64,000 nt of DNA from Aurelia coerulea (taxonomy: Eukaryota; Cnidaria; Scyphozoa; Semaeostomeae; Ulmaridae), in the NCBI GenBank assembly GCA_039566865.1, contig CM076944.1, positions 22,375,001-22,439,000 on the forward strand, given 5' to 3'. Positions 39,961 to 61,450 of the stretch are shown in pieces. The notes beneath the pieces were generated by a model that worked only from the letters and a program-made list of their open reading frames with translations, searched no databases and was not told where the DNA came from. How positions within the stretch are numbered: position 1 is the stretch's first letter; the number at the start of each line of letters is the position of its first letter. The translations under genes and the position numbers were made by a program.

Positions 39961-40433
39961 CATTTAACGCGAAAACCGCATTTCTACCCCTTGCCGTTTT
40001 CCAGGAAAAACATCAAATGTATAGCCGACCGTTTGCTAATTCTCACATAAAGCACTCGCTCAAGTCTAACTGTTGCGAGAAAATATTCACTTTTGTAACA
40101 ATTTCACAATTTTCACTCTTATTCAACAAAACAACAATATAAATCGCTTCATTTAATGTAAAAACTGCATTTCTACCCCGTGCCGTTTTCCAGGAAAAAC
40201 GTCAAATGTATAGCCGACCGTTAGCTAATTCTCACATAAAGCACTCGCTCAAGTCTAACTGTTGCGAGAAAATATTCACTTTTGTAACAATTTCACAATT
40301 TTCACTCTTATTCAACAAAACAACAATAAAAATCGCTTCATTTAACGTAAAAACCGCATTTCTACCCCGTGCCGTTTTCCAGGAAAAACGTCAAATGTAT
40401 AGCCGACCGTTAGCTAAATCTCACATAAAGCAC
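39961..40433 (+). repeat. MULE left arm, 189-bp array, outer part (~2.5 units)
   Basis: Unit landmarks ATAAAGCACTCGCTCAAG at 40047, 40236 and 40425 are spaced 189 bp. Interrupted at 40433 by a 2,989-bp insertion. Confidence 0.93.
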
Positions 40434-43422
40434 CCGGGGGTGAAGCTACCCAAAACCGGGGACGGGGACTTGAGTAGGTCATCTAGGCAAGAGTACCCAA
40501 AACCGGGGAGAATATTTTGAAAAGACCACCCAAAACTGGGGTAACTTTTATGATGAAATACCAAAAATTGTGGAATTCCTGTAATCCCACACATGCAACA
40601 TATTTCACATGAAAAAACCTTTCTTCCTAATTCAAACAGATTCAAACTGTGTAGAAGCTCTACAAATGTGTTCTGTACAAAAAGTAATGCGCTGGAGCCA
40701 AACTATTATGGACCATTATGAGGGACCATTATGGAAACAAGGTTGCACTGATCTTTTAATGCTTATCCCTGCCATTTTCAATTGGGGGTATTTTTAGGTT
40801 CAAGTTTTAACTTTTATATTATATGGTACACTTGTAATTAAACTGATTATTTTTTCCTAAATTCATGTTACATCAAATTTTAATTCATAGCAAGGCCAAA
40901 TTCTAAAAAATACCTACATACATAGAACAAAACAGCAAATTCTTGGGTCAACAGGTATATCCCAATCTATATACAATAATATAATTATGAGCAAATGCAG
41001 AGCTTAATCAGTGACAGTGGGCCACTTTGGTCAACACTATGCTGTATTCGTTTTTTCTATTTGCTTGATTAATATTTACTTTAGTGCTTTACTGCATATC
41101 TAAATGTCTAAATATCACAACAAACACAGCAACCTGCAAGATTATTCCATGTGTGTACAAAAACTGCACAAGAAATCGTCATCAGTAGTAGTGTGCCTTT
41201 CATGAATAAGCTTGATGAGATGGAGAGGGATTCACCATGCTTGCTGATCAAGATAATAACCATCTGTTATACTGTTTTGACAACAACTATTGAGCTCTCG
41301 CCTCTCTGTTTGCTTAATCAATAATGAGGCAAGATCTCAGATTGGCAGCCAAAGAAATCTGAGGCTAGTAGAGGAGGCCTAATAATTTACATACTTCCCC
41401 TTTAGTGTGAGTGTAACAGCAAAAATCCTGTTCAGTTATGGCATAATTTGAACTTATAATACAATAAAAGCGGAGACATACCCTCCCTGGTGTGTGGCAT
41501 TGCTATCTTTCGCCTTTTGTAATTTTGCCATCTCTCCAGTTTTCAAGTTTTCAAAATTTACAACAACATAACAACAACAACAACAAGTTTAGTTTCGCGC
41601 CCTTTACGGCGAAAGCGAGGTCATTCGAAAATGACCGAGCAAAATTTTTCAGAATTTTTCACAACTGATTGAGGCAATTGTCTGAAAGCAACGAAAGACG
41701 GCTTTTACTGAAGATTTCATCTCATCTGATGTTATTTGATGGAGTAATCTTGAATATTTCAATGAACTTGAAAATAGTGTGGATTAATAATACTATCAAC
41801 CTGAAACCACAGAGAACCACAGTAGAGACTTGTTGGCTTGGCCTTTGGGGTCAAGGCTGCCACTCGTAGGGGAAATCCCCTACGGTAGGGGAAATGAAGA
41901 TTTTGTAGGGGGTAGGGGAAACCTACGGGGAAATGACAAAAAAGTAGGGGAAACGTAGGGGATTTGCAACGACAGTCAATCGAAAATAGAAAAACTACGA
42001 ATTTGCAGCAAAAATGGAGAATATCACAACTAAACTTGAATCTAAATTATAATCAAGCAGTCAATTGCTCAATTACTCAAAAAAGTCCTGCAAAGGTTGA
42101 AGGGAAATGTTCGTTTGATCTCAATGGCCCTCAATATGACAGAGAGTGAGCTTTTTAACTTTTATTGGCATTTACTCTTGAGAATGTTCTCTCAACTATA
42201 GTATAGCTGTGCTCTGACGATCTAAGGGGTACTCAGGTATGTTTAGAATAGGGGTGCTCATGCTGGGGTACAATGCATCAACCCAAAAGATAATTTCTGG
42301 CATGAAAATAGACCCCAAAAAAGTAATTTTTCCGACCTTACATGCCGGAAAGTTTTGAAGTCAGAAAAGCGCCCTGTAGATTACTTGGATATTTATGTTT
42401 ATCTATTTTTGTAATGTTGCTCAATTCTACGTTTGCTTCTAAACTACATTTTTCCAGATTTATTTTGCAATTTCCCACATTTGAGAGACCCAAAAAAGTA
42501 AGCCAGAATTTAAAACTGGTGAAAAGTTTTACTCCAAAGCATGAAAATCTGACCGAAAAACGACCCGATCTAACAGAATATCCCCCTTTGGCATGTTTTG
42601 ACAACCTTCTCTAGAAAAATTGCCTTATTCTGATACCGCATGCTAGAAAAATTGGTAAAAACTATACTCTGAAAAACGGCACATCCCTGTTGGACAAATA
42701 TACCAAGTAGCTATAGAGTAGGGGAAAATCTGGATTTTGTAGGGGGAAATAGGTTATTTGTAGGGGAATCGTAGGGGAAAGTTTGTCATGGCCGTAGGGG
42801 AAAGTAGGGGGATTGAGCATGCGCTGTAGGGGAAACCGGCAACCTCTGCGTGGCAGCCCTGTTTGGGGTATGTATGTGTCAAACACACATATCCCATCCA
42901 GCATTGATATGATTTCATGCCATGGTAGAACGACAACGATGGTTGGCGAAGCATCAGACAGAGCAGGCAGATAACAGTCACTAATTTATAGTAGAGTGCA
43001 TATAATGTGGTGTATTAACAAGAGCAGAAATGCTCCAGGAGAAGTTACTACAGCAAAGACTTTGTACAGCAAAGAGAACAGGGAATATATGCTCCACTTC
43101 ACCAGTAGTGTCAAACCATGTGATATTATGAACTTCAAAAGACCTCGAAAACTGCTTTATTAGTAAAAACAAAAAATGAATTGGCGTGAGTTGTCAAGCA
43201 ATAAGCATCAGTAACTAATCAGACCTCTTATAGAGATGAGCTTAAACTTTAGTTTGCGTTGGACAAGTAAGCAGTGGTAGAATTCCTACCCAAAACTGAG
43301 GATGATAGGATCTTCCTGAAAAAAAGGTGTTGGTATGAATTTTTAACCCAAAACCGGGGATTGTGAGAAATTTATGACCCAAAACTGGGGACTGATCGGA
43401 ATTTATGACCCAAAACCGGGGT
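40434..43422. mobile_element. 2,989-bp insertion in the satellite, 9-bp TSD
   Basis: It splits a 189-bp unit. ATAAAGCAC at 40425-40433 is repeated at 43423-43431, a 9-bp target duplication. Both ends carry short tandem phrases CCCAAAACCGGGGA in the same orientation (40449-40545 and 43286-43421), so the ends are direct rather than inverted. It contains the hAT-like element at 41852-42861. No coding sequence is recognised. Confidence 0.8.
41852..42861. mobile_element. hAT-like element nested in the insertion, 8-bp TSD
   Basis: It starts CAAGGCTGCCACTCGTAGGG and ends TGCGTGGCAGCCCTG, with duplication TTTGGGGT at 41844-41851 and 42862-42869. Both ends contain clusters of GTAGGGGAAA repeats. The right half (about 42480-42710) resembles the CCCGGGG-family MITE interior. 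No transposase. Confidence 0.78.
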
Positions 43423-45862
43423 ATAAAGCACTCGCTCAAGTCTAACTGTTGCGAGAAAATATTCACTTTTGTAACAATTTCACAATTTTCACTCCTATTC
43501 AACAAAACAACGATATAAATCGCTTCATTTAACGTGAAAACCGCATTTCTACCCCTTGCCGTTTTCCAGGAAAAACGTCAAATGTACAGCCGACCGTTAG
43601 CTAATTCTCAAATAAAGCACTCGCTCAAGTCTAACTGTTGCGAGAAAATATTCACTTTTGTAACAATTTCACAATTTTCACTCTTATTCAACAAAATAAC
43701 AATATAAATCGCTTCATTTAACGTAAAAACCGCATTTCTACCCCGTGCCGTTTTCCAGGAAAAACGTCAAATGTATAGCCGACCGTTAGCTAATTCTCAC
43801 ATAAAGCACTCGCTCAAGTCTAACTGTTGCGAGAAAATATTCACTTTTGTAACAATTTCACAATTTTCACTCTTATTCAACAAAACAACAATATAAATCG
43901 CTTCATTTAACGTGAAAACCGCATTTCTACCCTTTGCCGTTTTCCAGGAAAAACGTCAAATGTATAGCCGACCGTTAGCTAATTCTCACATAAAGCACTC
44001 GCTCAAGTCTAACTGTTGCGAGAAAATATTCACTTTTGTAACAATTTCACAATTTTCACTCTTATTCAACAAAACAACAATATAAATCGCTTCATTTAAC
44101 GTGAAAACCGCATTTCTACCCCTTGCCGTTTTCCAGGAAAAACGTCAAATGTATAGCCAACCGTTCGCTAATTCTCACTTATAGCACACGCTCAAGTCTA
44201 ACTGTTGCGAGAAAATATTCACTTTTGTAACAATTTCACAATTTTCACTCTTATTCAACAAAACAACAATATAAATCGCTTCATTTAACGTAAAAACCGC
44301 ATTTCTACCCTTTGCCGTTTTCCAGGAAAAACGTCAAATGTATAGCCGACCGTTAGCTAATTCTCAATAAAGCACTCGCTCAAGTCTAACTTGTTGCGAG
44401 AAAATATTCACTTTTGTAACAATTTCACAATTTTCACTCTTATTCAACAAAACAACAATATAAATCGCTTCATTTAACGTGAAAACCGCATTTCTACCCT
44501 TTGCCGTTTTCCAGGAAAAACGTCAAATGTATAGCCGACCGTTAGCTAATTCTCACATAAAGCACTCGCTCAAGTCTAACTGTTGCGAGAAAATATTCAC
44601 TTTTGTAACAATTTCACAATTTTCACTCTTATTCAACAAAACAACAATATAAATCGCTTCATTTAACGTGAAAACCGCATTTCTACCCCTTGCCGTTTTC
44701 CAGGAAAAACGTCAAATGTATAGCCGACCGTTAGCTAATTCTCACAATAAAGCACTCGCTCAAGTCTAACTGTTGCGAGAAAATATTCACTTTTGTAACA
44801 ATTTCACAATTTTCACTCTTATTCAACAAAACAACAATATAAATCGCTTCATTTAACGTGAAAACCGCATTTCTACCCCTTGCCGTTTTCCAGGAAAAAC
44901 GTCAAATGTATAGCCGACCGTTAGCTAATTCTCAATAAAGCACTCGCTCAAGTCTAACTGTTGCGAGAAAATATTCACTTTTGTAACAATTTCACAATTT
45001 TCACTCTTATTCAACAAAACAACAATATAAATCGCTTCATTTAACGTGAAAACCGCATTTCTACCCCTTGCCGTTTTCCAGGAAAAACGTCAAATGTATA
45101 GCCGACCGTTAGCTAATTCTCAATAAAGCACTCGCTCAAGTCTAACTTGTTGCGAGAAAATATTCACTTTTGTAACAATTTCATAATTTTCACTCTTATT
45201 CAACAAAACAACAATATAAATCGCTTCATTTAACGTGAAAACCGCATTTCTACCCCTTGCCGTTTTCCAGGAAAAACGTCAAATGTATAGCCAACCGTTC
45301 GCTAATTCTCACTTATAGCACACGCTCAAGTCTACTTGTTTCAAGAAAATATTCACTTTTGTAACAATTTCACAATTTTCACTCTTATTCAACAAAACAA
45401 CTATATAAATCGCTTCATTTAACGTGAAAACCGCATTTCTACCCCTTGCCGTTTTCCAGGAAAAACGTCAAATGTATAGCCGACCGTTAGCTAATTCTCA
45501 CATAAAGCACTCGCTCAAGTCTAACTGTTGCGAGAAAATATTCACTTTTGTAACAATTTCACAATTTTCACTCTTATTCAACAAAACAACAATATAAATC
45601 GCTTCATTTAACGTGAAAACCGCATTTCTACCCCTTGCCGTTTTCCAGGAAAAACGTCAAATGTATAGCCGACCGTTAGCTAATTCTCACATAAAGCACT
45701 CGCTCAAGTCTAACTGTTGCGAGAAAATATTCACTTTTGTAACAATTTCACAATTTTCACTCTTATTCAACAAAACAACAATATAAATCGCTTCATTTAA
45801 CGTAAAAACCGCATTTCTACCCTCTTGCCGTTTTCCAGGAAAATTGTCAAATGTATAGCCTC
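43423..45862 (+). repeat. MULE left arm, 189-bp array, inner part (~13 units)
   Basis: Units are nearly identical, start ATAAAGCACTCGCTCAAG and end CCGACCGTTAGCTAATTCTC. Repeated variant units (TTATAGCACACGCTC with TTTCAAGAAAAT; TAACTTGTTGCGAG) show amplification of blocks. The array ends with a degraded unit (CAGGAAAATTGTCAAATG). Confidence 0.95.
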
Positions 45863-45911
45863 GTGCATACAGTTTTTGACTTTTATATGTACGTAGAATT
45901 GCAAATGTTGA

Positions 45912-46219
45912 TCAAACTCGCTCTTTTAATCGTTTTATGCTACCCTTTATGTTATTCACAAATTCTTCATCTTGAGTTTTTATCCTGAAAACGTTGATAT
46001 TTACATTACTTCTTGGATTATCTTCTAGAAACTTGAAAATAGCGGTCAGGAACATAGTTGCGGTCTTCTTGTTGTCACGTTGCCCTTTGTTGTTGCAGAT
46101 ATATATATCGGGAAGACTTATTGACCGACATAATAGCTCATTGGCCATTCCCATGAATTTTGCTAACATCTCTTGGTTTGATTCGGCGGTCTTCTTCAGT
46201 GTTTGTTTCCTTGACGTAT
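45912..46219 (-). CDS. MULE gene, last exon
   Basis: Acceptor TCATTAG. It encodes TSRKQTLKKTAESNQEMLAK through DIYICNNKGQRDNKKTATMF to IKGSIKRLKERV and a stop at 45912. The phase fits the preceding exon (GAT G + AT). It reads as a Lys-rich, probably helical C-terminal tail; no domain recognised. It begins only ~50 bp inside the satellite arm. Confidence 0.6.
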
Positions 46220-46814
46220 CTAATGATTTAATAATAGAATAATCAATCACTTATTGGTCAATATTTTGCAAGGTATGAACCCGTCTTTTCTACTTTCCTA
46301 AGATTTGTCACATTCTTTCTAACTGCCCCTTGAATAGCATTGAAAGTTTTCATCTGACTCTCTAGGAGACGAAGGAAAGTTAAAGGACGCAGAGCAGTGA
46401 CATCAATTTCACTTCAATGTCATTGATATTTTCTTTTTATTTCTTGAGCTTCCTTTCTGTCTCGGCATTTTCTGCTCTTAACCAAAATACTCGTAGCACA
46501 TCGGAAACATAGGAAAATATTAGAAAATATTTCCGAATTTATGGGTATATACTTATCGGAAATTTTTCCGGATTTATGGATGGTAGTTTCACGCTTTGAA
46601 TGACACAACCCCATATCATGGAAACTTAGTTACCCCCCCCCCCCCCCCTCTCTCGGGTATCGAGCATGATATCTTGTGCAGGAAGCTACAGGAGCAATTA
46701 CATATAGGCTGCAATGCACCCTCGTGTTGGTGAGTGTACCTTTAGACAGGACACATCTTTGTTGCTAATGATTCCGAAGCATATGCTTAAGAGAAAAAGT
46801 GCTTAAACGCTCAC

Positions 46815-46965
46815 CATCTTGTTTTACCATGAGAAGCAAATATCTTCCAGGAATCTCAGTTAAATCTAAGGCAACAATCTCTCCAAGAGACAGTTCACCC
46901 TGTTTACGTTTCTCGTTCACTTGCGATTCTATACTTTGGTAGCCTTGTCCAAGCGTTTTTTTCAT
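46815..46965 (-). CDS. MULE gene, exon n-1
   Basis: Acceptor TTTTCATAG, donor GTGAGC. It encodes MKKTLGQGYQSIESQVNEKR and GEIVALDLTEIPGRYLLLMV. 151 bp, entering at phase 0 and leaving after one base. The 600-bp intron that follows holds other small ORFs and a long C run and seems non-coding. Confidence 0.6.
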
Positions 46966-47234
46966 CTATGAAAATAACATAAAATATATACATCTATACA
47001 GAAAGAAAGCAGTAAAAGCAAATGCACTCCGTCTCATTTTAATGAAAATTTTGCATTATCGAATGTTGTAGGCATAGCCATAAATGAAGAAGAGAAGAGA
47101 ATTGTTTTGTTGCCTCAATTATTGTCTGGTATCACGATGTTTCATTTCCCGTTGTAATCCGTTTAGGCGGGTTGCCACTTGCGCAAGAGCGCTCGAATTC
47201 GATCATGTTCGTAGTACGAAGTTGTAGAACTGAC

Positions 47235-47314
47235 CTGTTCCGTTAATTCGAGGTTGTTCCCAATGAAGGCACATTTTGCATGGCAGAAATCTTGTGTCAT
47301 GCTTCCATCATAAG
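47235..47314 (-). CDS. MULE gene, exon n-2
   Basis: Acceptor ATTTTAG, donor GTCAGT. 80 bp encodes YDGSMTQDFCHAKCAFIGNN and LELTEQ in the phase predicted by the upstream exon. Two cysteines; no domain assigned. Confidence 0.6.
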
Positions 47315-47687
47315 CTAAAATAAATATAGTAGTAATAATGTGTTAGACTTTATATCGAAATTGTTATGTGGTTGTGCGTACTGCTTGCTTTTACGGCCAA
47401 TTTGATTTATTAGAAATGGTGCCCGCAAATTGAAGTAGCAAGTTTCAAATTATTTGAAAAATCATTCTATTTAAAGAAATAAATCCAAATTTGTAATGTC
47501 GATAGTTGCCAAAAGGCCAAGATACATGTTTCCAATTACTTTGCTAGCCTTAAATGTTTATTTCAAAGAAGTGGACATGCCCCGTATCATGAAACAACAG
47601 CTTTCCTATTTTCTTAAACGATTAAGTGAACGCGCTATCTCGTTGAATCCAGTGTAAATGTCCAAATATTCGTTCGTACTAATACCA

Positions 47688-48322
47688 CGTTTACACAGAG
47701 CATGAGCGATAGGACACCAAGTGTGCTAAAGTTTTACTGGTAGCAAGACACTTTAATCAATTGTTATTGGTGTGTTTTTACCTAATTTTTACTTGATAGT
47801 GTGCCACCTTATCACATTCTTTTCATTTTTGAAATTTTCAGTAGTGAGCGCCCTTAAGTGCAGATCCACCTTAGTCGTAAAACCTCGAGAGGGAAATTTT
47901 TTCCTCTTGAGGCTTTACGGTTAGGATGGATTTGCATTTAAGGTGGCTCACTACCGGAAATTTGAAAAGTGAAGAAACAGCGATGAGGTGGCTCACTACC
48001 AAGTAAAAATTAGGTAAAAAGACACGAAAAACTATTGGTTAAGGTGGCTTGCTATCAAGAAATAGAACTTTCACACATTTGGTGTCCTATCGCTCATGCT
48101 CGGAGCAAAAATACAGGATCGCGATCCAGTCGTGATCCACAAGGGTCGAGAGCGCGTTCAAGTTGCGTGTACACGGGCGCCAAACGAAAACGGATGAGGA
48201 TCGCTATCCATTCGCACATGCGTATTGCGCATAGGTACGGGACCTGCGTTTACACGACACATTCTATCAGGATCAGGATTGCGATCTGGATCGTGATCCC
48301 TTGCTTTTGCTCCGTGTAAACG
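47688..48322. mobile_element. Foldback MITE in a MULE intron
   Basis: It starts CGTTTACACAGAGCATGAGC and ends TGCTCCGTGTAAACG. Inside, TGAGCGATAGGACACCA at 47703 is mirrored near 48080-48096, and the palindrome centres on CTCGAGAGG..CCTCTTGAGG near 47900. Intronic, so it would be spliced out. Confidence 0.6.
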
Positions 48323-48368
48323 GGTTATAACGTTACTTGGAGCTGGTTCTATCAAATATCAAACTCAC

Positions 48369-48450
48369 TTTGGATGTAAATATCTTTTTCGTCATCAGTT
48401 GATTTTCGGACACCTCCTCCCATTTTCCAAACATTGCAAACTTTGATGTC
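48369..48450 (-). CDS. MULE gene, exon n-3
   Basis: Acceptor CTTCTTCAG, donor GTGAGT. 82 bp encodes DIKVCNVWKMGGGVRKSTDD and EKDIYIQ. It joins in frame to the AAG end of the large exon at 48606 (..HIGILLK). Confidence 0.6.
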
Positions 48451-48605
48451 CTGAAGAAAAAAACGAAAGAGAAATAAGTTCATTGCCAGCCAGTTGATAA
48501 GAACCTTTTAACTTGTTGTATTTCAGTGTGCTCAAAAGATTGCGCCTATCGCCAATGCAAAAGCCTGACAGCGTAACGAAACTTTTAGATTCGAACTAAG
48601 CTCAC

Positions 48606-51026
48606 CTTCAATAGGATTCCAATGTGAAAGAAGCAAGTAGGATCTGCTCCAAAAAGGCACTTAAACAACTGTGTGTGAATGGTAGATCTATTCTCTTCTT
48701 TGATATAGTTTGCAAGGAGTTCAGGCATCAGGATATATCTGTAAAAGTTCTCGCGTGCCAGTGAAAATGATTCCCGTAGTTGCATATGCTCATATCCACC
48801 ATAATCAAACAGCTCCTCCGACGGCGTACGGTAATAGATAAACATTTTCCTTATGTAGCTCAAGCAAGAAGCGTACTTGGATTGACCAAGATATTTCACA
48901 ATTCTGAACTGTTCTTCATTTGCGTGTTGAAGAAACATTCGTTTTTGGATCAATATTGCCGCCAATCTTTCTGAAACTAACGTTCCTGCTGCAAAATCTT
49001 TCCTTGCATTTCCAATGCGTTTCAGCACTGGAATTTTGTTCTTCTGGAAACTTTGCGCAAGTTCATCATCGTCTGTCAGCTCTTCATCTGTGTCATCGGA
49101 GTCGGATCGTTCGCGGGCGAATTGTTTCGTCAACTGTCCAAAATCCACAGAAGTATCATCGCCAGCTGAAGTCCCTTCACTGAAATCCAAAGGGTCATCT
49201 GGATAATTTTCCTCCCTTATTTGATCTTCAACCAAATGATCAATGATAGATGTGAATTCGTCTTCATCAGAAGGACCAGCTTGACATGAAGGACCAGTCT
49301 GTTTTGTTGATGAGCTCGTTAAGATATTGTCGGTCTTGCTGCTAGCATTTTTTGGTACAGGATCCATCGCTTCTAGTTTTTCATGGCAATGGCTAGCTGT
49401 AGGCATCTTGGATGTTGCAAGATTTCTTGCCAGACGTTGAAATACGTTTTCACCTGGACATTGGTCAGGAAGCTCCTCCACAATTTCTGATCTCTTTACC
49501 AAGGCCAGTTCAATGGGTATAGCAAGGCCCTGTTTGTTGTCTGTGTTGCCCACAACTTTAGGTGCATTGAGTGCCATTGACGCTATCCATACACGTATTT
49601 TTGTGATTGTTTCCGGCCTATCTGCTAACCATAATTCTTGATGCAGAAGATTGTAGGAATTTAAACAAGCGTACGCACCGCAATCGTATCCATTTCTTTG
49701 TCTCGAGACATCTCTGCAGTTCAAAAAGATCCAATCTTTTATATTACAGGGCTTGGAATAATGCTGGTGCCATTCCCTAACGAAGGAAAACAATACAGAG
49801 AAAACAAATGCCTTTGAGCCTTGCATTGAGTCGCAATGGAGTATCAACTTAAGATGAGGGAAAACTCCAGCTACTGTCCAATGTAAATTGCCTCCTTTAC
49901 CGTCTTTATGATGGATAGGGACGATCACCAAATCGTTTTTCTCTAAAAACGTTCTATCGGCTTTGATGTTCTTGACTTCGATGGACTTCCTTCCAGAGCA
50001 GAGCGCTGAAACGAAATATGTCGATGTTGATGTCACATTCAGTTTCCTCTTCTGTGAACAAATATTTCCAATGAAAGCATTCACAATCGTTTCGTTAATC
50101 CATTGTTCAGGAATGGTTTTATTGAGATCAACCATATCGATTACTCTGTTTGTCGATGGCAAATTACTGTCTCCCAACCACAGCTGGACTACTCTGTTAT
50201 AAGCATGTTCCTGTAAGTCCCATGGAAAATGACATTCCGTAGAACCACTTGAATCTGCAGAAATATGTGACTCTCGAATGTAGAAGAGTAAGAATGTTCT
50301 TGCTCTGAATTCTGGATCTCTCAGTTTTGCTCTTGTCGTTGAGACGCTTACTACAGTATCGTCAAATGTAACTGCTTGCCCATCGTCGTCAAATATCGTC
50401 GCATAGTTGTGTCCAGAATACTGATTTCTTGCATACAGATTGACACTTGCACACAATCGATACGTTACGCTTCTACTATCTTCAGTTGCTGTCGAGGTCT
50501 TTAGTTCCAAATATTCTTCGATGTTTAACAATGTTTTATTAATTCTCCCTTGGATCATACCTCCGCCATGCATTGCCCCACCTACGACTCTGTTCGTCTC
50601 GATTACCAGGACAGACGGAGCGTCTAACAGCATGTACATGTTGTAAAACATTCCTTGCTTTGGTGAATTGGTGCTGTCTTGTCTCATTCTCTTGTCTGGC
50701 GTTTGTTTGGACGATTGGCAATTGCAGCCAGGACCTTCATTTTGGATGGAGTATTGGCAAGCGGCTGCATCCCATAAAAGATGCTTCAGGGCGATGGATT
50801 CTTTCCATTCCGGAACTCGGGTTCGAAGCAAGCATGGTCGATTCAGCATACCTTCTAAACCACCACAAGATCGACAAATTAAAAGTTCTGCTTCTCGTGG
50901 AAAAAATGCATCTTCATAAGATGCATTGCTGCAATCATTCCCAATCTTTGTAAGGACATTTCCAAGAAACTCAGACGCGCACATTTGCTGCGGGTTTTCA
51001 AAACTAAAGCTCAACCTCACTGCCTA
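48606..51026 (-). CDS. MULE gene: rest of USP domain and Ulp1-like protease
   Basis: The frame 51020-48585 (811 codons) has no ATG at its start and continues the USP domain begun in the previous ORF. It has PQQMCASEFL (USP QQDxxEFL box), RNQYSGHNYATIF with the catalytic His at about residue 204, VTFDDTVVSVS with the catalytic Asp at about 220, and FLLFYIRE. A second peptidase follows at residues ~360-460: GGNLHWTVAGVF (His ~380), LHCDSMQG (Asp ~397), then RQRNGYDCGAYACLNSYNLL with Gln ~441 and Cys ~447. That is the C48 Ulp1/SENP order. A Ser/Asp/Glu-rich linker follows. The coding part probably ends at a donor, GAAG|GTGAGC at 48606; reading through it meets a stop at 48585. All catalytic residues of both domains are present. 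Confidence 0.8.
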
Positions 51027-53412
51027 CTACTTTTTTGTTTCTTGTATCTCTCAAATGGTCTTGGTTTGCTTCTTTTAATTCATTATGTAGAGAGACAAGT
51101 GCTTTTACAATATTTGATGAACTGTCCGTTGGGAGAAATTGAAAAATCACGCTTCCGCAAAGAACTTGCAGCACAGCATTCATGAAACACGTAGTGCCTG
51201 TATCGTTTTCTATTCCCCGCCTGGAATAGACAACCCTCCGACAGTGCTTCTTTGCCCGTTTTTCGTATACGTCCAATCTCTCTATGCAGTTTTGCAAGCC
51301 AATGCTCTTCTTGTTCCACTCTAAGTACCTTCGAATAAGTTCCTGCTTGTTACCTGCGGGAATATCCTTTTTATAATGTGATAAGTACCGCAAGAAAGGA
51401 TGGAAATTTCCAAATATGCACTGCTCACAATGATAAAACATTGCTGCCTCAGCATAAGACTCCTCAATTCCTAAACATTCATGGTGGAACCAGACTTTAC
51501 ACAGATCACACATCACCATTGCATCAGGGCGCTGTTCATACGTGAAGTTGCACAAGCATGGTGATTTCATTAATCTCTCTGCATCTCTTTCATCAAAGAA
51601 TTCTTCTTTCTCGTTCTGGCTCAATCTACGCCATTTCCTCTGGATTGAGTTGATGCAATGTGCGATCGTTGGTGATGTAGGACCCTCAGTTTTCCACGTC
51701 TGATCTCGAAAAGCGTAAAATGCTAGCATCTCCTGTATGGGTGTCGTTTTCGATTTGTGATGCGGCCCATGTGGCTCAAATTCCACGTGTGCTTGACCAG
51801 GACGATAGGCACCAAAGCTTGTATTTTTCTTCCTCTTAGGTGTCGTCTTATTCCATGTTTCCTCGATGTTACTGTATGTATTCAGGTCATCTTCGTTCTC
51901 TGATTTGCCCACTCGTTTCTTAGACTTTGTCGTACTGCTGTCCTTACTGTTCTTCTTCTTATCACAACTGCCACTCCACAAACCATCTGCATATTGACGC
52001 CGCAACCCCTTATGATTGGACCATAATCTGCCTACAAAATGATCCAAGGGCAATTTGAGGGCGGAAACATCCCTTTTCAGCACACTGAAAAATCCTTCTA
52101 TTTGTCCACTGGTCCTGTTTTGTGTTCTAATGCTTCGCGCAGCAGTCGTCGGAGCTCGTATGTCATAAATCTCGTTAAACCTTGACAGGTCTCCAAGACA
52201 AAGGTTCGTCCAAAGGGTGACAGTTGGAAGCTTCTTTTCGCGGAGGTACTTGAAGTACATTGGATTGTGGTAGATGTTTAAAATTGGTGCTTCCTTAAAA
52301 GGTAGCTTCGTTACTGTCTTGTGCAAGCTATTCTGGATGCATCTATTCCAAAAAACGTTGATGTTTGCTTCTTCTGAACCTGTGTTTATTAGACTTTCCT
52401 CGTCGTTCATCTGGGCTTGGGAGTCATTCTCTTCATAGTCTTCCTCTTTCTGCTCTTCACTCTTTTTCTCCAAATCATCTAATGCCTCGTATACTTGAGG
52501 ATATTCATTTATACTTCGCTCTATGGAAGACAAGGCGGTGGTAACATTAGACGTCAAAAATTTACTGTTGAACACAACATAGCCATGTCCTACAAGATCT
52601 TCCAGCTCTTCTAAACGCCGACATTCGACTAGTCGTGCAAAAAATCGCATACTGAATTCTCTCACTTGTGAGGTAGGGCGCCCTGGTCGATTCTTAATGA
52701 ACTTGTCCAGCATAGTCTTGTTGTTTTTCATTACATGGGCATAGCAAATGTGGAGGAATGTTAAAGAAAGTTTGTCTGCGCTCGCTTTTCCACAAACAAT
52801 ATCAAATGTTCTGTCTATATATTGTTTAACTGTTTCTTGGTTGAATTCGCTAAGACATGCCATGATCATCGCTAGACTGTTGTCGGTTAGAATTAATGCT
52901 GGTTGTACGCATTTACCACCGAATATCAGCCTCTCTTTCTCTCTCAAGGTGGTAATCATTCTTCGTATGGATTCCGTTGTGTGGCTGCTGGACACGTATT
53001 CAGCAACTGGCAATGGTGGGGACTCTTCGTACGGATGACGCACACACAATGAATAGTACAGAATTCTCTTGAACTGAGGCATTTTCCTCACAACACTTCC
53101 AGTGGCATCAAAGTAGATGATGTCACGAGGTGCTATTCCATGGTAAAGTCTGATTGGCGGTTCATGGAGGAGAACTAATTTAATCTCTGGGACAAGTTCC
53201 ATTGACTGTATGTATCCAAACAGTTTACGTGATGCGTGTTTTAATTGTTTCGCCATGTCTTCATCTTCTTTCCTTAGTTTCTCCTGCAGATCCTTCATCA
53301 GATTGTGGAGCAGTTTGATATCTCGATGCTCCTTGGACACCTCGTTCTTTATTCCCTGAACCACTCTTACTGACCCTCCTGCGTCTGTCCGGTTTCCAGC
53401 GAGCAAATTCAT
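51004..53412 (-). CDS. MULE transposase with HMG-like, PHD and USP N-terminus
   Basis: 802 codons. The DDE core has IIYFDATGSVVRK (first Asp ~102), ALILTDNSLAMI (second Asp ~177), FLHICYAHVMKNNK (the C..H motif of MULE transposases, ~223-226) and NRTSGQIEGFFSVLKRDV (third acidic residue, Glu ~439). The spacing between the second Asp and Glu is long because of an acidic insert at ~310-350. Lys-rich region ~485-530; HMG-box-like stretch ~555-612 (KRKW, LSQNEKEEFFDERD); PHD finger ~619-665 (CLCNFTYEQ, VMCDLCKVWFHHECLG, CEQC). Then RRGIENDTGTTCFMNAVLQV, the Cys box of a USP (Cys ~742). The frame then breaks within the USP domain. Expected role: nuclear transposase carrying histone-reading and deubiquitinating modules. 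Confidence 0.85.
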   Translation of the reverse strand: MNLLAGNRTDAGGSVRVVQGIKNEVSKEHRDIKLLHNLMKDLQEKLRKEDEDMAKQLKHASRKLFGYIQSMELVPEIKLVLLHEPPIRLYHGIAPRDIIYFDATGSVVRKMPQFKRILYYSLCVRHPYEESPPLPVAEYVSSSHTTESIRRMITTLREKERLIFGGKCVQPALILTDNSLAMIMACLSEFNQETVKQYIDRTFDIVCGKASADKLSLTFLHICYAHVMKNNKTMLDKFIKNRPGRPTSQVREFSMRFFARLVECRRLEELEDLVGHGYVVFNSKFLTSNVTTALSSIERSINEYPQVYEALDDLEKKSEEQKEEDYEENDSQAQMNDEESLINTGSEEANINVFWNRCIQNSLHKTVTKLPFKEAPILNIYHNPMYFKYLREKKLPTVTLWTNLCLGDLSRFNEIYDIRAPTTAARSIRTQNRTSGQIEGFFSVLKRDVSALKLPLDHFVGRLWSNHKGLRRQYADGLWSGSCDKKKNSKDSSTTKSKKRVGKSENEDDLNTYSNIEETWNKTTPKRKKNTSFGAYRPGQAHVEFEPHGPHHKSKTTPIQEMLAFYAFRDQTWKTEGPTSPTIAHCINSIQRKWRRLSQNEKEEFFDERDAERLMKSPCLCNFTYEQRPDAMVMCDLCKVWFHHECLGIEESYAEAAMFYHCEQCIFGNFHPFLRYLSHYKKDIPAGNKQELIRRYLEWNKKSIGLQNCIERLDVYEKRAKKHCRRVVYSRRGIENDTGTTCFMNAVLQVLCGSVIFQFLPTDSSSNIVKALVSLHNELKEANQDHLRDTRNKKVVGSEVEL

Positions 53413-55132
53413 CTGGTGTTAAATTAGCAAGCCCTTTGCGGTACACGTCAGAAGGGGGCAAACCTGGATTTTTCTCAAAAAGTTTCTTTGCTTCGTTGCG
53501 CAGATCTCCAGAAATTTTTCTTGATTTGCGTTCATGCAGGTCGTGCTTTATTCTACCAGTAAAGCGAAGATGTATGTTGTCCATACTGTTCTTGTCTACG
53601 GAAAAATGTACCTCTGCACTGCATGTTGGCCTGTGGGCACATACTGCATATCCTTTCATAAAAGGGGAGTTTCTTTTTCTCGATCCAAAACTTGATACAT
53701 GGTTTCCCTTGAAAACAAGCGTGCAGTGAGGATTATGCTGCTTTATGAGCTCAGCAAAGAATTTAGTCCAATTTCCAATCAGCTTTTCCTTCCCGATAAA
53801 CTCCTTCCATTTTGCTGGCAGGCTGATGGTAATATCGGAAGGAATATCAGCAGTGAACATACCACTGGGATGGATATTGCTGTCAGACAGGATATTTAAG
53901 GTTTCATTTGTTATTCCTATTCCTGCAAAAGCATCTCGTTCACCCCCTTCATGCTCTGTTTGACAAAGCGTTGCCTCATCATGCATTTGTTCACTTGTGA
54001 CAGCGGCACTATTGGTCACCTCAAGTTGATCTCTGAGTTGAAAAGTTCTTACAACTGAACTCTTACATGCCGTCGATGTACGCGAATTGCCAAGATATTT
54101 CTCTGCAATATCGCATGTTATTTTTGAACACACACTTGCCACATAACTGGTTACACTGTTCCAGACACTATTTTGATGTGTTGAACCACTGTTGGCTCCA
54201 CCTGGATCTCCAATGGCATGAGTGTCTTCAAATGGATTTTTCAATGCCTCTTTTGCACCCTTCCTTGCAGAAATTTCAATTTTCCGTCCTATTTGTGTTG
54301 TATCTTGCCGCTCGTTTTCTCTCCATTCTTCCTCTTGGAGCATTTCTTTACTTTGATTGATAGTGCCTGCTTCATTTTCATCATTTTGGTGAGAGTCATC
54401 AAGTTCCTTTGCAAGAGTAGTGTCACCCAAATCAAATGTCATGCTGTCGAAGTCACTGTCCATTTGATTGTCGCCACCAGAATCTGTATCCCTTACTTTC
54501 AAATTTTCCTGCATCGTATGCAATTTCTCTTGCTTTTGCTCTGTGGTCCTATCTCTGCTCTCTTCCTCATCTTTACTGCGCTTCTCTGCATTGATCAGCT
54601 CCGCCAACAGAGGGGAGATTTTGCTGGAATGGTTCTCTGTTTCATTACCAGCTTCATTTCGTGTACATTCTATACTTATGTTCTCTTCATCTAACTTTGC
54701 GTCTCCATCATCCATTTTTCTGCGACGTACAGAGCTCCTGTAAAAGTCGTACAGCAGACGTGATTTTCTTTTGCTGATGTATTTTTGTCCATCGAAATAC
54801 ATGCGTGCAACTCTGGACCATCTTTCCTTCCAAGGTCGATCACTGTTAATTCGGTTCACGAACGCTAAACACCTAATTAGTTTTTGCTTATCGATTAAGG
54901 ATTTGTCTCGTTTGCGAATCTTTTTTGGTCGCCCTCCTGCTCGACATCTCGTGAAAATTGTTTCTCTTTCTCTCCATGGCAAACATTTCATATACCTTAT
55001 ATCAGGCAAAATATTCGGTTTTTCAGCTCGGCCTATTTTTCTCGTTGGTGACCTGCCTCGTGTATGCTTTCTCAGACAGGTTGGGCATATGCAGATGTGG
55101 TTGCGTCTGTAAGCAGTATTCCTGGCTGCCAT
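53261..55132 (-). CDS. MULE gene N-terminal ORF: zinc finger, DNA-binding region
   Basis: 623 codons starting MAARNTAYRRNHICICPTCL. Residues 14-63 contain several Cys, then an AT-hook-like GGRPKKIRKR (67-76). A long polar, acidic middle (140-420) follows. Residues 441-540 resemble the WRKY-GCM1/FLYWCH-type zinc fingers that precede MULE catalytic domains: VCAHRPTCSAEVHF (Cys 498, Cys 504), then GRIKHDLHERKSRKISG (His 530, His 533), followed by NEAKKLFEKNPGLPPSDVYR. The transposase continues in the ORF that starts at 53412, in another frame. The overlap is 152 bp and a single indel near 53345-53400 would join them. The start was chosen as the first ATG of the open frame. Confidence 0.75.
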   Translation of the reverse strand: MAARNTAYRRNHICICPTCLRKHTRGRSPTRKIGRAEKPNILPDIRYMKCLPWRERETIFTRCRAGGRPKKIRKRDKSLIDKQKLIRCLAFVNRINSDRPWKERWSRVARMYFDGQKYISKRKSRLLYDFYRSSVRRRKMDDGDAKLDEENISIECTRNEAGNETENHSSKISPLLAELINAEKRSKDEEESRDRTTEQKQEKLHTMQENLKVRDTDSGGDNQMDSDFDSMTFDLGDTTLAKELDDSHQNDENEAGTINQSKEMLQEEEWRENERQDTTQIGRKIEISARKGAKEALKNPFEDTHAIGDPGGANSGSTHQNSVWNSVTSYVASVCSKITCDIAEKYLGNSRTSTACKSSVVRTFQLRDQLEVTNSAAVTSEQMHDEATLCQTEHEGGERDAFAGIGITNETLNILSDSNIHPSGMFTADIPSDITISLPAKWKEFIGKEKLIGNWTKFFAELIKQHNPHCTLVFKGNHVSSFGSRKRNSPFMKGYAVCAHRPTCSAEVHFSVDKNSMDNIHLRFTGRIKHDLHERKSRKISGDLRNEAKKLFEKNPGLPPSDVYRKGLANLTPDEFARWKPDRRRRVSKSGSGNKERGVQGASRYQTAPQSDEGSAGETKERR

Positions 55133-56067
55133 TATTGCAAACTCGCCAATCAGAGATTCATGATTTCTAGTCTTTGTAACTTACAATGAGAGAATGTTGT
55201 AAATGTATTACACCGTGGTCTAACAATACCGATAAAATTGAACGAAGAATCTACACTAGCACCTGACCAGGAGTAGCAATCTGCAATGGCAAAAAAAAAC
55301 TGAAAACAGACGTGAAATTTAAATTCCCCCTTGATCCAAACAGAAATTTGACAGACTGCCTCTAAACTCGCAAAAAAGGAGCCGTGATTTTCTGTAAAAA
55401 ATATATAAGCTATTTTGTCCGGCTACTTTTGTTTATTAATCATTTGTAAGAAATAGAAGTATGGAGTTTTTAGTGCGCAGTATGGTCGCAGTTTCCAGTT
55501 TACTGGTGACCCTACAATCCTGGAAAAAATATATCGGAACAAAGTATAATTGTAAGATTTTACCCCTTTTACCCCCGATTTAATGTTGGTTAGATGTCTT
55601 TAGTTTCAAGGTGCCAACCAACATTGTTTTTGGTGACAATGTAGAAATGAGAAAAACTGAGATAATCAGAAAATATATAACTTTGTTCCAAATATTTGGT
55701 CCAGCATTGTAGATGCCCACTCGCATTTCAAACTCTTGTCCAGAGCTAAATTTATACACAGTCTCTGTATTCATCAGGAACAACAACGACACCCGAGAAA
55801 TTGAAATGTTGCTGCACGTAAGAAGCTCCACTGATAATCAAAACATTTAAAATCTCAAGTAATTGGATAAGATCGCTGGAGCACCTGTATCCTAATGAAG
55901 GAAGGATGAGAAGAGGTACGGATGATTGAAGAAAATTTGCTGTTGCAACTGAAGCTTTTTATTTCGCTTGAAGCATACTTTGGCCTATTCTTTGTAATTA
56001 ATTACGGGCGAAGGGATCAAACATGATTTGTGGCGAGTTCAGACTGTTGTATTTTGTGATAATAGCT

Positions 56068-56393
56068 CCCGGGGAGGGGGGGGGGGGTACTTAGTATATT
56101 TGTCCGACGGGGATGTGCCGTTTTTAAGGGTATCGTTTTCACCAATTTTTTTCTAGCACAGGGTATCAAAATAAGGCAATTTTTCTAGAGCAGGTTGTCA
56201 AAACATGTCAAAGGGGAATATTTTGGTAGATCGGGTAATTTTTCGGTCAAATTTCATTGTTTTAGAGTATACTTTTCACCAAATTTTTCTAGAACAGGTT
56301 ATCATTTTGAGCGAAAAATTCTGGAGCAGGGTAAAAAAAAAATTTTTCGTGGGCACACCCCCGTACAAATTTAAGTCAAGTAGCCCCCCCGGG
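56068..56393. mobile_element. hAT-like MITE (CCCGGGG family) with 8-bp TSD
   Basis: It starts CCCGGGGAGGGG and ends CCCCCCCGGG, with duplication TAATAGCT at 56060-56067 and 56394-56401. The interior includes TTGTCCGACGGGGATGTGCC and GTGGGCACACCCCCGTAC. Same family as 16562-16785 (inverse) and related to 10489-10841. Confidence 0.8.
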
Positions 56394-56470
56394 TAATAGC
56401 TTAAATTGGGCGTTGATCTAAATAACGAGGCCAGATTCCTGGAGGGGGGGGGGGGGGTGGGTGGGATTAC

Positions 56471-56619
56471 TTAACCCGATTACTACCGTGGGGGGCACAA
56501 AGTGCCCACGGCAAAGTTTACTTGATGTATTGTCGTCAGTTCAAAAGATAAAGAGCTGAAACTTTGCAACTTTTCCTAAAATTAATAGATCAAAAAAGGC
56601 CCGGTAGGATTAGGGTTAA
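56471..56619. mobile_element. Short piggyBac-like MITE
   Basis: 149 bp, starts TTAACCCGATTACTACCGTG and ends CCGGTAGGATTAGGGTTAA. TTAA edges. Contains GTGGGGGGCACAAAGTGCCCACGG hairpin-like bases (56488-56511). Related in its ends to 8586-9472 and 18661-19556 but much shorter. Confidence 0.7.
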
Positions 56620-56769
56620 GTTGAGGGGAGCCGCCCCCGGCCCCCCGCCTCGTACGCTTATGGCTTTTGTTCTCAAAGTCCGATAATTTGAAGAAACCTT
56701 CAGCAGGTACGACGGCCGTATTCAACTCTTATGGCATTCAAACATACAAGTATTTTTTTATATAGGAAA

Positions 56770-57850
56770 CTATGGAGCGTTGTTTGCGTCTTTATTGCAA
56801 TTGGTCTTTTTATATGGTCTTTGTCGATTTTGTATGGCAATGCCTAATATTGTTGCGTAATTTCTATGCTGATTCACACATTTCGTATGGTGTTTGTCCA
56901 TTTTAACAAGGTCAACTAATTAATTTTAAGTATCGCCTTCTCATTTTCGTATGGCGTTTTGAATTTCATATGGCGTGTTACATTACTGGAACCAAAAGCG
57001 TAGACTAATTACATATGTCACTCTATGTTGTTGTGTGTGTTGTATGTGTGTATGTATGTGTGTGTATGTGTGTTGTTGTTGCTGTTATTGCTCCTGTTGT
57101 TGCGGCAAGTCAGCAAAGGGAGCAAAACAAGAGACTTTTGGAATAAGTCTACTAAGAACGAACAATTGGGAACATTTCGTGAATTCCAGAACATAAAAAT
57201 TGTGAATCGTTTTGTCGGATTTTTCAGTACAACGCAATGTCCAATCCTGATTGATTTGATTGATCATATAAAAAGTTACAGCTCTTCCGACATTCCTGAA
57301 TAATGTAGATAGAAAAGTAGTAACTTTCTGACAGAGTTTATTTATTCGAAAACATCAGTAATAGCACGAGCAATATTTCCTGTCGCTTATTCTCAATACG
57401 ATTTAACGAAACAACTTCGGAGTACAATAAACGCATTTCTTCCAAATGTAGGAGACATTTCCATTCAAGATCGCCGCGAGGAGATTGTAGTTAAACTCCC
57501 GTTCGACTACTGTACATTCGGCCAGAAACTTCCAACACAACACAAAGTTTAATGCAAATAAAATTAAGTGAGGCCCGTGATAACATTTCAAAGTACAATG
57601 TGCAATAGACAAGAAGAAAATTCGATTTTGCCGGGGCCCCTTGCGGGGCTTAGCTCGATAATATCATTACAACATACAATGAAAAAATAAACGTTCATTT
57701 TCACGGGCCCCGGGGCAGTTGCCCCGTCTACCCCCCCCCCCACTCTCGGCGGTCCTGCGCAACAACATTAGGCATTGCCATACAAAATCGACAAGACCAT
57801 AAAAGAAGATCAATTGCAATAAAGACCCAAAAAACGCTCCATATGCCCAT
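56770..57850. repeat. Inverted repeat pair, ~95-bp arms
   Basis: ATGGAGCGTTGTTTGCGTCT to CAATGCCTAATATTGTTGCG at 56770-56860 is mirrored at 57757-57848 with about ten differences. Enclosed are a TG-rich tract and a GGGGCCCC-rich block near 57635-57740. Probably a decayed DNA transposon; no target duplication identified. Confidence 0.6.
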
Positions 57851-58860
57851 AAGAAACTCAATTCTCAGATCGCTAAAAAAATTAAGAAACTCTAGTACTG
57901 GGAAGATATTAGTAAAGAAACTATGTATTTTGATAAAGGAAATCGTTGACATAGTTTTACTTTTCTTCCACTTGCTTCCCGTATCATATTGCTCGTAAGG
58001 TACTTCAGTAATGTATAAACATGGGAAAGGCTTAAAAAAACATTGGGTCTGACTGCTCAAAATCTGATAAATTCAAGAAACTTTCAGTTCTCGCCCAAAT
58101 TCCTGGTTTCTTATAAAAAATATGTGTAATTAAGGACTTACCTTGCCTTCTACTTTGTACGAATTTTGTTGATGGCAAACGCTATTTCATTAAAATTTAC
58201 CAGAGGTATTCTCGAGAAAATAGGCAATCTTTCAGAATTCAAATTCGTCATAAACTCATTAACATTTACATCTCCTTCTAAAATCTAACACAACTAAACT
58301 CCATTATATATATTGTTTTGGGATATTATCAGTATAGTGTCTGGCGTGGTTTCTCCAGAATAGCCAGACCCCTGTCTAACTTCATTTGATTCTGCGCAGT
58401 AGCTATTTCAGGTTCTTCGACCTTAATATTCCTATTTTGATATGCGCATGCCCCAAAGATCTTCGCCTACTGCATTGATCAGTAAGCCAATCAGACTTAA
58501 CGTCTTTTCCATTTTGATTTGCAGAAGGGAGAGTTCGTAGTATCCCAAACAATATAGTTAATCAATTAGGGTTACAAAACTAGTGGTTATTGAATTGCAG
58601 AAAATTGCACATACGTAAATCGTCAATGTCGTTTATGGCAATCTAATTCTTCTCACTTTGTAAATCTCTTAGTTACCACATGATAAGGCACGCAATTAGT
58701 CATAATGATAATCCGTTCTCCAAGCAAAACGTAATGAGGTAATTAAGTTAGGTGGTCCGTAATGACTTTCCTGTCAATGGAAGTGGCTAATGATTACAAT
58801 ATTATTACTGCTGTTATAATCCAACAATAGATGCATTGTATAGCTACATGAATGTGTACA

Positions 58861-61289
58861 AGAGTGAAAATTGTGAAATTGTTACAAAAGTGAATATTTT
58901 CTCGCAACAGTTAGACTTGAGCGTGTGCTATAAGTGAGAATTAGCTAACGGTCGGCTATACATTTGACGTTTTTCCTGGAAAACGGCAAGGGGTAGAAAT
59001 GCGGTTTTCACGTTAAATGAAGCGATTTATATTGTTGTTTTGTTGAATAAGAGTGAAAATTGTGAAATTGTTACAAAAGTGAATATTTTCTCGCAACAGT
59101 TAGACTTGAGCGAGTGCTTTATTGTGAGAATTAGCTAACGGTCGGCTATACATTTGACGTTTTTCCTGGAAAACGGCACGGGGTAGAAATGCGGTTTTCA
59201 CGTTAAATGAAGCGATTTATATTGTTGTTTTGTTGAATAAGAGTGAAAATTGTGAAATTGTTACAAAAGTGAATATTTTCTTGAAACAAGTAGACTTGAG
59301 CGTGTGCTATAAGTGAGAATTAGCAAACGGTCGGCTATACATTTGATGTTTTTCCTGGAAAAAGGCAAGGGGTAGAAATGCGGTTTTCACGTTAAATGAA
59401 GCGATTTATATTGTTGTTTTGTTGAATAAGAGTGAAAATTGTGAAATTGTTACAAAAGTGAATATTTTCTCGCAACAGTTAGACTTGAGCGAGTGCTTTA
59501 TGTGAGAATTAGCTAACAGTCGGCTATACATTTGACATTTTTCCTGGAAAACGGCAAGGGGTAGAAATGCGGTTTTCACGTTAAATGAAGCGATTTATAT
59601 TGTTGTTTTGTTGAATAAGAGTGAAAATTGTGAAATTGTTACAAAAGTGAATATTTTCTCGCAACAGTTGGACTTGAGCGTGTGCTATAAGTGAGAATTA
59701 GCTAACGGTCGGCTATACATTTGACGTTTTTCCTGGAAAACGGCACGGGGTAGAAATGCGGTTTTTACGTTAAATGAAGCGATTTATATTGTTGTTTTGT
59801 TGAATAAGAGTGAAAATTGTGAAATTGTTACAAAAGTGAATATTTTCTCGCAACAGTTGGACTTGAGCGTGTGCTATAAGTGAGAATTAGCTAACGGTCG
59901 GCTATACATTTGACGTTTTTCCTGGAAAAAGGCAAGGGGTAGAAATGCGGTTTTCACGTTAAATGAAGCGATTTATATTGTTGTTTTGTTGAATAAGAGT
60001 GAAAATTGTGAAATTGTTACAAAAGTGAATATTTTCTCGCAACAGTTAGACTTGAGCGAGTGCTTTATGTGAGAATTAGCTAACGGTCGGCTATACATTT
60101 GACGTTTTTCCTGGAAAACGGCACGGGGTAGAAATGCGGTTTTTACGTTAAATGAAGCGATTTATATTGTTGTTTTGTTGAATAAGAGTGAAAATTGTGA
60201 AATTGTTACAAAAGTGAATATTTTCTCGCAACAGTTAGACTTGAGCGAGTGCTTTATGTGAGAATTAGCTAACGGTCGGCTATACATTTGACGTTTTTCC
60301 TGGAAAACGGCAAGGGGTAGAAATGCGGTTTTCACGTTAAATGAAGCGATTTATATTGTTGTTTTGTTGAATAAGAGTGAAAATTGTGAAATTGTTACAA
60401 AAGTGAATATTTTCTCGCAACAGTTAGACTTGAGCGAGTGCTTTATGTGAGAATTAGCTAACGGTCGGCTATACATTTGACGTTTTTCCTGGAAAACGGC
60501 AAGGGGTAGAAATGCGGTTTTCACGTTAAATGAAGCGATTTATATTGTTGTTTTGTTGAATAAGAGTGAAAATTGTGAAATTGTTACAAAAGTGAATATT
60601 TTCTCGCAACAGTTAGACTTGAGCGAGTGCTTTATGTGAGAATTAGCTAACGGTCGGCTATACATTTGACGTTTTTCCTGGAAAAAGGCAAGGGGTAGAA
60701 ATGCGGTTTTCACGTTAAATGAAGCAATTTATATTGTTGTTTTGTTGAATAAGAGTGAAAATTGTGAAATTGTTACAAAAGTGAATATTTTCTCGCAACA
60801 GTTAGACTTGAGCGAGTGCTTTATGTGAGAATTAGCTAACGGTCGGCTATACATTTGACGTTTTTCCTGGAAAACGGCACGGGGTAGAAATGCGGTTTTT
60901 ACGTTAAATGAAGCGATTTATATTGTTGTTTTGTTGAATAAGAGTGAAAATTGTGAAATTGTTACAAAAGTGAATATTTTCTTGAAACAAGTAGACTTGA
61001 GCGTGTGCTATAAGTGAGAATTAGCTAACGGTCGGCTATACATTTGACGTTTTTCCTGGAAAACGGCAAGGGGTAGAAATGCGGTTTTTACGTTAAATGA
61101 AGCGATTTATATTGTTGTTTTGTTGAATAAGAGTGAAAATTGTGAAATTGTTACAAAAGTGAATATTTTCTCGCAACAGTTGGACTTGAGCGTGTGCTAT
61201 AAGTGAGAATTAGCTAACGGTCGGCTATACATTTGATGTTTTTCCTGGAAAAAGGCAAGGGGTAGAAATGCGGTTTTCACGTTAAATGA
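58861..61289 (-). repeat. MULE right arm, 189-bp array (~13 units)
   Basis: Inverse of the left-arm array: units contain GAGAATTAGCTAACGGTCGG and GACTTGAGCGAGTGCTTTAT. Variant units (CGTGTGCTATAAGTGAG; TTCTTGAAACAAGTAGACTT) are the same variants as on the left arm, so the two arms share history or exchange sequence. Confidence 0.95.
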
Positions 61290-61450
61290 AGCGGTACATG
61301 TTGCAGTTTTGTTGAATAAGAGTTAAAATTGTTAATTGATACAGTTTTTCATTATTTTCAAAGTCTTTCACTGGCTGAGCCACGAATATGAAACTGCGTC
61401 TGGAATCTGAATCTGCGTCCAGACGAAAATTCGTCTAACTTGCAGATGGT
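61290..61450 (-). repeat. MULE right terminal inverted repeat, outer part
   Basis: The inverse of 39799-39960. It ends GACGAAAATTCGTC..CTTGCAGATGGT, followed by AACCGACATT, which matches the beginning of retrotransposon repeat A near 36019-36028. Confidence 0.88.

Follow-up and report, generated by a model that had tools for sequence, protein, structure and literature searches.

The 64,000-nucleotide stretch of Aurelia coerulea DNA analysed here (the window; contig CM076944.1, positions 22,375,001 to 22,439,000) harbours a mobile element whose transposase gene, on the minus strand, carries two isopeptidase-type domains. Judged by anatomy alone, it is almost certain that one giant protein unites a DDE-type core, a PHD finger, a USP domain and a Ulp1 domain. 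Combinations of Ulp1 with a transposase and of C19 (the USP family) with a transposase were already known separately. The pairing of USP with Ulp1 in one transposase was not found in searches of open-licence papers, which do not cover Repbase. The initial annotation had been right about the fusion; it was silent on the inverted repeats made of tandem repeats, on the exons further downstream that probably encode a macro domain and on copies with a single open reading frame (ORF). Moreover, the interval it had given for the gene, 48606-53412, was too narrow, since exon 1 extends to 55132, predicted exons reach down to 45912 and the whole element occupies 39799-61450. The parts of exon 1, in window positions, are as follows.

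48606..55132, minus strand: exon 1 of the transposase gene, from the ATG at 55132 to the splice donor at 48606, with two frame breaks in the window copy
53534..53641, minus strand: putative zinc finger CAHRPTC...HxxH, found by eye, with no Pfam match
52087..53109, minus strand: DDE-type catalytic core with D (DATG), D (TDNS), CxxH (CYAH) and E (QIEG)
51595..51723, minus strand: very weak HMG-box-like stretch just ahead of the PHD finger (HMG_box_2 E 0.18 in the window, HMG_box 0.27 in homologue P0009)
51418..51558, minus strand: PHD finger with the Cys4-His-Cys3 pattern (Pfam PHD 2.1e-6)
51007..51222, minus strand: first part of the USP domain with the catalytic Cys (within 51184-51195); Pfam UCH 0.03 for this piece alone, below the cut-off
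50271..50981, minus strand: second part of the USP domain with conserved Cys pairs, His (within 50403-50417) and Asp (within 50355-50369); Pfam UCH 2.5e-8
49557..50192, minus strand: Ulp1/SENP-type peptidase (C48) with His (49875-49886), Asp (49827-49838) and Gln and Cys (49677-49703); Pfam 1.3e-10

Domains and relatives of the giant protein

In the window copy, the gene lies in three overlapping open frames (55180-53261, 53418-51004 and 51023-48585). Copy C1b (locus L004), which is 71% identical to the window copy, has an uninterrupted ORF of 2,213 amino acids in which all parts are joined. Copy B (L002), near-identical to the window copy, has an ORF of 2,085 amino acids that runs through USP and Ulp1 and ends after Ulp1. 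Both places where the window copy breaks frame stay in one frame in copies B, C22, C1b and C9a, so only the window copy, or its assembly, is affected by the breaks. Programmed frameshifting was ruled out as a requirement, because copies B and C1b need none. Chance overlap of frames was ruled out by the Pfam matches, the PDB matches and the conservation, and two separate host genes were ruled out by the single ORF of L004 and by the presence of both peptidases in one protein in homologues P0006-P0010. In the L004 protein, Pfam placed PHD at residues 1224-1270 (1.2e-5), UCH at 1338-1650 (8e-13) and Peptidase_C48 at 1757-1858 (1.1e-12), all passing the cut-offs. The initial annotation had read complete motif sets for USP (Cys, His, Asp) and for Ulp1 (His, Asp, Gln, Cys), and all of these residues are present in the window pieces. 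It had also proposed a set of Pfam searches: UCH, Peptidase_C48 and PHD were found, MULE was without a match and HMG was only hinted at.

Comparison with solved structures pointed in the same direction. The last piece of the window matched yeast Ulp1 best (3.5e-11), and a profile of the Ulp1 part matched SENP1 (6e-22), which stands nearest together with Ulp1 and SENP2; SENP8 followed far behind at 4e-4. Searched against the PDB, a profile of the USP part returned only USP-family chains among the matches listed at E up to 0.01 (40 of 40; best USP36, 4.6e-7). Most of this score comes from the half with His and Asp, while the Cys box is aligned in place but weakly. The conserved Cys pairs are presumably like those of the USP finger. 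Among solved chains, PHF2 was the best match of the PHD piece (4.8e-8), and PHF8, JHDM1D, MLL5 and BPTF were also near.

Protein searches yielded ten distinct homologues (P0001-P0010), and alignment A5 contains eight members. P0001, P0003 and P0002 are 99%, 98% and 47% identical to the window piece, respectively, and their tags are, we assume, those of an Aurelia annotation. P0004 contains PHD and UCH. UCH and C48 occur together in one protein in P0006, P0007 (which also has PHD), P0008, P0009 and P0010, the last being a protein of the hydrozoan Clytia hemisphaerica with 29% identity. The initial annotation had suggested seeking the architecture in other cnidarian genomes; the alternatives it had named, absence of UCH or C48 or their separation into host genes, do not agree with these proteins. 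At E up to 1, UCH was matched in eight of eight A5 members (P0002 below the cut-off), C48 in seven (the P0002 model stops short) and PHD in six. The PHD match was above the cut-off in the window piece, L004 and P0007 and below it in P0002, P0008 and P0009; P0010 and the P0006 fragment gave none. Among the A5 sequences that span them, the catalytic residues are conserved in seven of seven for the USP Cys, the USP His and the Ulp1 His, Asp, Gln and Cys. At the third USP site the first Asp is found in six of seven sequences, with Asn in Clytia P0010, which we take to be the arrangement of USP2.

A further homologue, P0005, is encoded on a 3,273-base ENA contig. It is a distant fragment (25%) in which a DDE core (DATG, CAAH) precedes a USP-like Cys box recognised by eye; Pfam found no UCH in it. 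This fragment hints that the family of transposase-USP fusions is wider. We also scanned viral contigs with one peptide pattern around the USP Cys box. Two stretches matched, neither coding for a relative, and this speaks weakly against a viral carrier.

The ratio of nonsynonymous to synonymous substitutions (dN/dS) between copies B and C1b came to 0.148 overall, with values of 0.159 in USP, 0.151 in Ulp1 and 0.306 in the N-terminal part; these figures are rough, because synonymous sites have almost reached saturation. The DDE, PHD and tail parts were fully saturated at such sites, and their ratios of differing sites (pN/pS) were 0.24, 0.17 and 0.46. Roughly estimated in this way, both peptidases appear to be under purifying selection. 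Decay of the whole family was ruled out by dN/dS. USPL1 is described as a USP-family enzyme that prefers SUMO (PMC8983731), so the substrate is not readable from the USP fold. Ubiquitin for the USP part and SUMO for the Ulp1 part are putative substrates, and enzyme activity is predicted from the sequence.

Exon 1 is followed by a further predicted part of the gene.

45912..48450, minus strand: predicted downstream exons at about 48450-48369, 47314-47235, 46965-46815, an uncertain one near 46361, and 46219-45912, with splice sites placed by eye

Homologous ORFs end alike at the exon 1 donor, with GILLK-V in L004 and L003, GILLE-V in P0006 and P0007 and LLLR-V in P0008, and the P0009 model splices on past the end of exon 1. 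The downstream exons of the window were found again in copies B (five of five), C22 (four of five) and C1b (three of five). A profile of the spliced C-terminus together with that of P0009 was searched against the PDB at E up to 10, and 22 of 24 matches were macro domains (best E 0.0019), including PARP14, PARP9, PARP15, macroH2A and deacetylases. The P0009 piece alone reached 0.095 at best against macroH2A, and its Pfam Macro match stayed below the cut-off (18.1 versus 22 bits). On the window's own downstream exons Pfam gave no Macro, only DUF7391 below the cut-off in the last exon. Taken together, the downstream exons probably encode a macro domain.

Ends, copies and classification of the element

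The gene is enclosed by long terminal inverted repeats (TIRs).

39799..61450, no strand: the complete element (21,652 bp, of which 2,986 bp are an insertion in the left arm); inverted ends with the first 80 bases identical
39799..45860, no strand: left TIR, with the end at 39799-39905 followed by 189-bp tandem units at 39906-40436 and 43423-45860
58860..61450, no strand: right TIR, 13.1 units of 189 bp and the end

The termini read ACCATCTGCAAG... at 39799 and 61450, and the right and left inverted repeats are 96-98% complementary in their longest matches. The insertion at 40437-43422, which interrupts the left tandem-repeat arm, matches nothing else in the window at E 1e-20.

We searched the source genome (574 Mb, 294 contigs) for further copies. 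The coding DNA matched at least 46 pieces, which are pieces and not copies, as several belong to one copy. Three further complete copies were read, namely B, C1b and C22, with lengths of 17.2, 15.5 and 18.2 kb, respectively, and each has the same kind of ends. Across the four complete copies the element spans 15-22 kb, and long TIRs of about 1.3-2.6 kb are present in all four. Perfect target site duplications (TSDs) flank two of the four, 10 bp at C1b (L016/L017) and 9 bp at C22 (L013/L015). Copies C22 and C1b lie on different contigs and are 99.6% identical over 8.6 kb, which indicates recent movement of the family. Its mobility is shown by the TSDs and by nearly identical copies at different sites. 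Two broken C9 copies, near 8.64 and 9.71 Mb, are 99.5% identical over 11.8 kb and about 1 Mb apart.

The D, D, CxxH and E residues of the core are invariant in all six of the eight A5 sequences that span it, with 74 and 267 residues between in the D-D-CxxH-E arrangement. A C/DxxH motif between the second D and the E is reported as common to Mutator-like elements (MULEs), hAT, P, Kolobok and Dada (PMC9587614). Of the MULE features, the DDE core with CxxH, TSDs within 8-11 bp (in two of four complete copies) and long TIRs were all found. The initial annotation had called the core MULE: the joining of a DDE-type core to PHD, USP and Ulp1 was borne out by the L004 ORF, and motif and TSDs agree with MULE, but the profiles are silent. 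Even at E up to 10, no Pfam transposase profile was found in P0008-P0010.

Rehavkus, a Mutator-related group from insects and annelids described as sister or member of MULEs, has a PHD finger in the transposase, a 9-bp TSD, a minisatellite by the 3' TIR and a single ORF (PMC6446971). In our element PHD is present and the TSD is 9 bp in one copy and 10 bp in another, with none in two. The likeness is striking. The minisatellite of Rehavkus lies before the 3' TIR, and here the 189-bp tandem arrays make up the TIRs themselves. Among the differences, the TIRs of Rehavkus are given as 26-400 bp, against kilobases of 189-bp units at both ends of the window element. Furthermore, the host here is a cnidarian, and the part of the Rehavkus description available to us, on which the whole comparison is based, makes no mention of USP and Ulp1 (PMC6446971). 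In summary, we regard the element as a large cut-and-paste DNA transposon of the Mutator/Rehavkus kind, MULE by anatomy and motif and equally close to Rehavkus. It was filed as Mutator/Rehavkus-like and not as a member, because no transposase profile matched and Rehavkus was compared by description only. The spacing of the N-terminal CAHRPTC...HxxH finger is presumably WRKY/GCM1- or FLYWCH-like.

Several other transposons carry part of the same domain set. Ulp1 has been reported in Ginger1 and Mutator elements (PMC2836005). Mutator-like elements with Ulp1 from hydra, lancelet and plants share the DDE core with CxxH, the 8-11 bp TSD and Ulp1 itself, but USP is absent from the accessible parts of their descriptions (PMC2836005, PMC6446971, PMC9587614), and the window element is without a Pfam MULE match. 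Ginger1-9_HM of Hydra combines a transposase with Ulp1 and PHD; in contrast, its core is of the Gypsy-integrase type with GPY/F, the element measures 3,758 bp and no USP is listed in the portion of the report at hand (PMC2836005). The Trichomonas protein XP_001314237.1 joins C19 to a transposase domain of another kind (transposase_11), and only those two domains are named in the same source (PMC2836005). Helentrons bear two deubiquitinase-type domains, VTD and OTU, and cnidarian VTD genes are reported to occur with transposon domains; however, Helentrons use a rolling-circle Rep-helicase, their proteases are of other classes and the available text mentions no SUMO peptidase (PMC9741609).

Putative role of the two isopeptidases

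SUMO and ubiquitin are central to the silencing of animal transposons and to the repair of transposon-made breaks. Removal of both tags would seem to benefit the element, given that it has retained a USP-type and an Ulp1-type peptidase in fusion with its transposase and that a relative at 29% identity exists in a hydrozoan. We favour a mechanism, to which we give about an even chance, in which USP and Ulp1 at the element would strip ubiquitin and SUMO and so locally undo silencing or repair signalling. The N-terminal zinc finger would bind to the element ends or to the 189-bp arrays there, DNA would be cut and joined by the DDE core, and the PHD finger would dock on the histone H3 tail. USP and Ulp1, held at the element, could then take ubiquitin and SUMO off proteins of the chromatin or of the transpososome. 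As the likeliest benefit, ubiquitin/SUMO-dependent silencing and repair signalling would be undone locally, allowing the element to be expressed and moved. A transposase, a histone reader and two types of tag-removing enzyme in one protein may thus help escape from host silencing, and single Cys changes in this system would tell which conjugate matters, in silencing, transposase stability or repair.

The proposed outcome would be comparable to that of VANC in plant VANDAL elements: VANC proteins are reported to bind noncoding tandem repeats of these elements and to induce loss of silent marks (PMC10398659). This binding of VANC to the element's own tandem repeats suggests a role for the 189-bp arrays. 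As in the window element's proposed mechanism, the Arabidopsis transposons counter silencing via tandem repeats in their own noncoding part; in contrast, VANC is a separate anti-silencing protein, and isopeptidases do not appear in the part of its description available (PMC10398659). More tentatively, and rather unlikely in our estimate, the protein could be a complete chromatin eraser kit, comprising a PHD reader, a deubiquitinase, a SUMO peptidase and a macro domain that binds or removes ADP-ribose. Drawn to its own 189-bp arrays, such a protein would cancel ubiquitin/SUMO/ADP-ribose-dependent silencing or repair signalling in cis and would be an animal counterpart of VANC acting by deconjugation.

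A number of observations weigh against the interpretation given above. Among the eight copies compared (window, B, C22, C1b, C9a, C9b, C9c and C5), one frame from the N-terminus to Ulp1 was found only in B and C1b. C22 is split ahead of PHD, its PHD-USP-Ulp1 half being open but separate, and stops lie within the peptidase part of C9a, C9b, C9c and C5. The models of P0001 and P0003 end before USP and that of P0002 within it, none of the three reaching Ulp1, and the P0004 model is without the USP His/Asp and Ulp1. Copy C1b seems to be without the second exon, and of the four complete copies checked, the window copy and copy B showed no TSD. With E up to 1, neither the window pieces nor the eight A5 members yielded any Pfam transposase profile, MULE included. 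AlphaFold2 models of the transposase part and of the PHD-USP-Ulp1 part, each computed from a 7-row alignment, were unusable, with a mean predicted local distance difference test (pLDDT) score of 37.2 and 31.2, respectively. The roughness of the dN/dS figures counts here as well, and expression is indicated by gene models only. Finally, anti-silencing is proposed by analogy, and protection of the transposase would need the same domains.

Such protection is the main rival: the isopeptidases might shield the transposase complex from ubiquitin/SUMO-dependent degradation, or modify repair factors at excised ends, with no effect on silencing. We consider this possible but doubtful. Both enzymes lie in cis with the transposase in the L004 ORF, a repair role has been suggested by the Ginger authors (PMC2836005), and the VTD authors suggest that proteasomal degradation of transposition proteins is prevented (PMC9741609). 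The PHD finger, with PHF2 and PHF8 as its nearest solved chains, points instead to chromatin.

It is improbable that the peptidases serve self-processing, in which one or both would cleave the giant protein into functional parts and leave host conjugates alone. The very long, multi-domain product would fit, and some viral C48 relatives process polyproteins, but the Ulp1 part is nearest to SENP/Ulp1 enzymes and the USP part retains the conserved Cys pairs. Relatives in other genomes, one of them hydrozoan, and gene models in an Aurelia annotation could be taken for a domesticated host gene whose product has come to work for the jellyfish. However, the four copies that have such inverted ends sit at different sites, and two of them carry TSDs and are 99.6% alike; this speaks for a recently active element and makes domestication very improbable. 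We give least credence to accidental capture, by which decaying host USP and Ulp1 exons would ride a transposon without function. MULEs are indeed described as tending to acquire host gene fragments (PMC6446971), and the two frame breaks of the window copy and the peptidase-part stops in four other copies would agree with it, but the rough dN/dS of 0.15-0.16 in both domains and the conservation to Clytia at 29% identity argue against it.

Other repeats in the window

Outside the element, inverted 178-bp tandem units (about 94% alike) were found at 33423-35321. They make up a small element of foldback-like type whose inverted arms, in the manner of the large element, consist of tandem repeats. 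In addition, a tandem array with 27 repeats of an 82-bp unit occupies 36455-38664.

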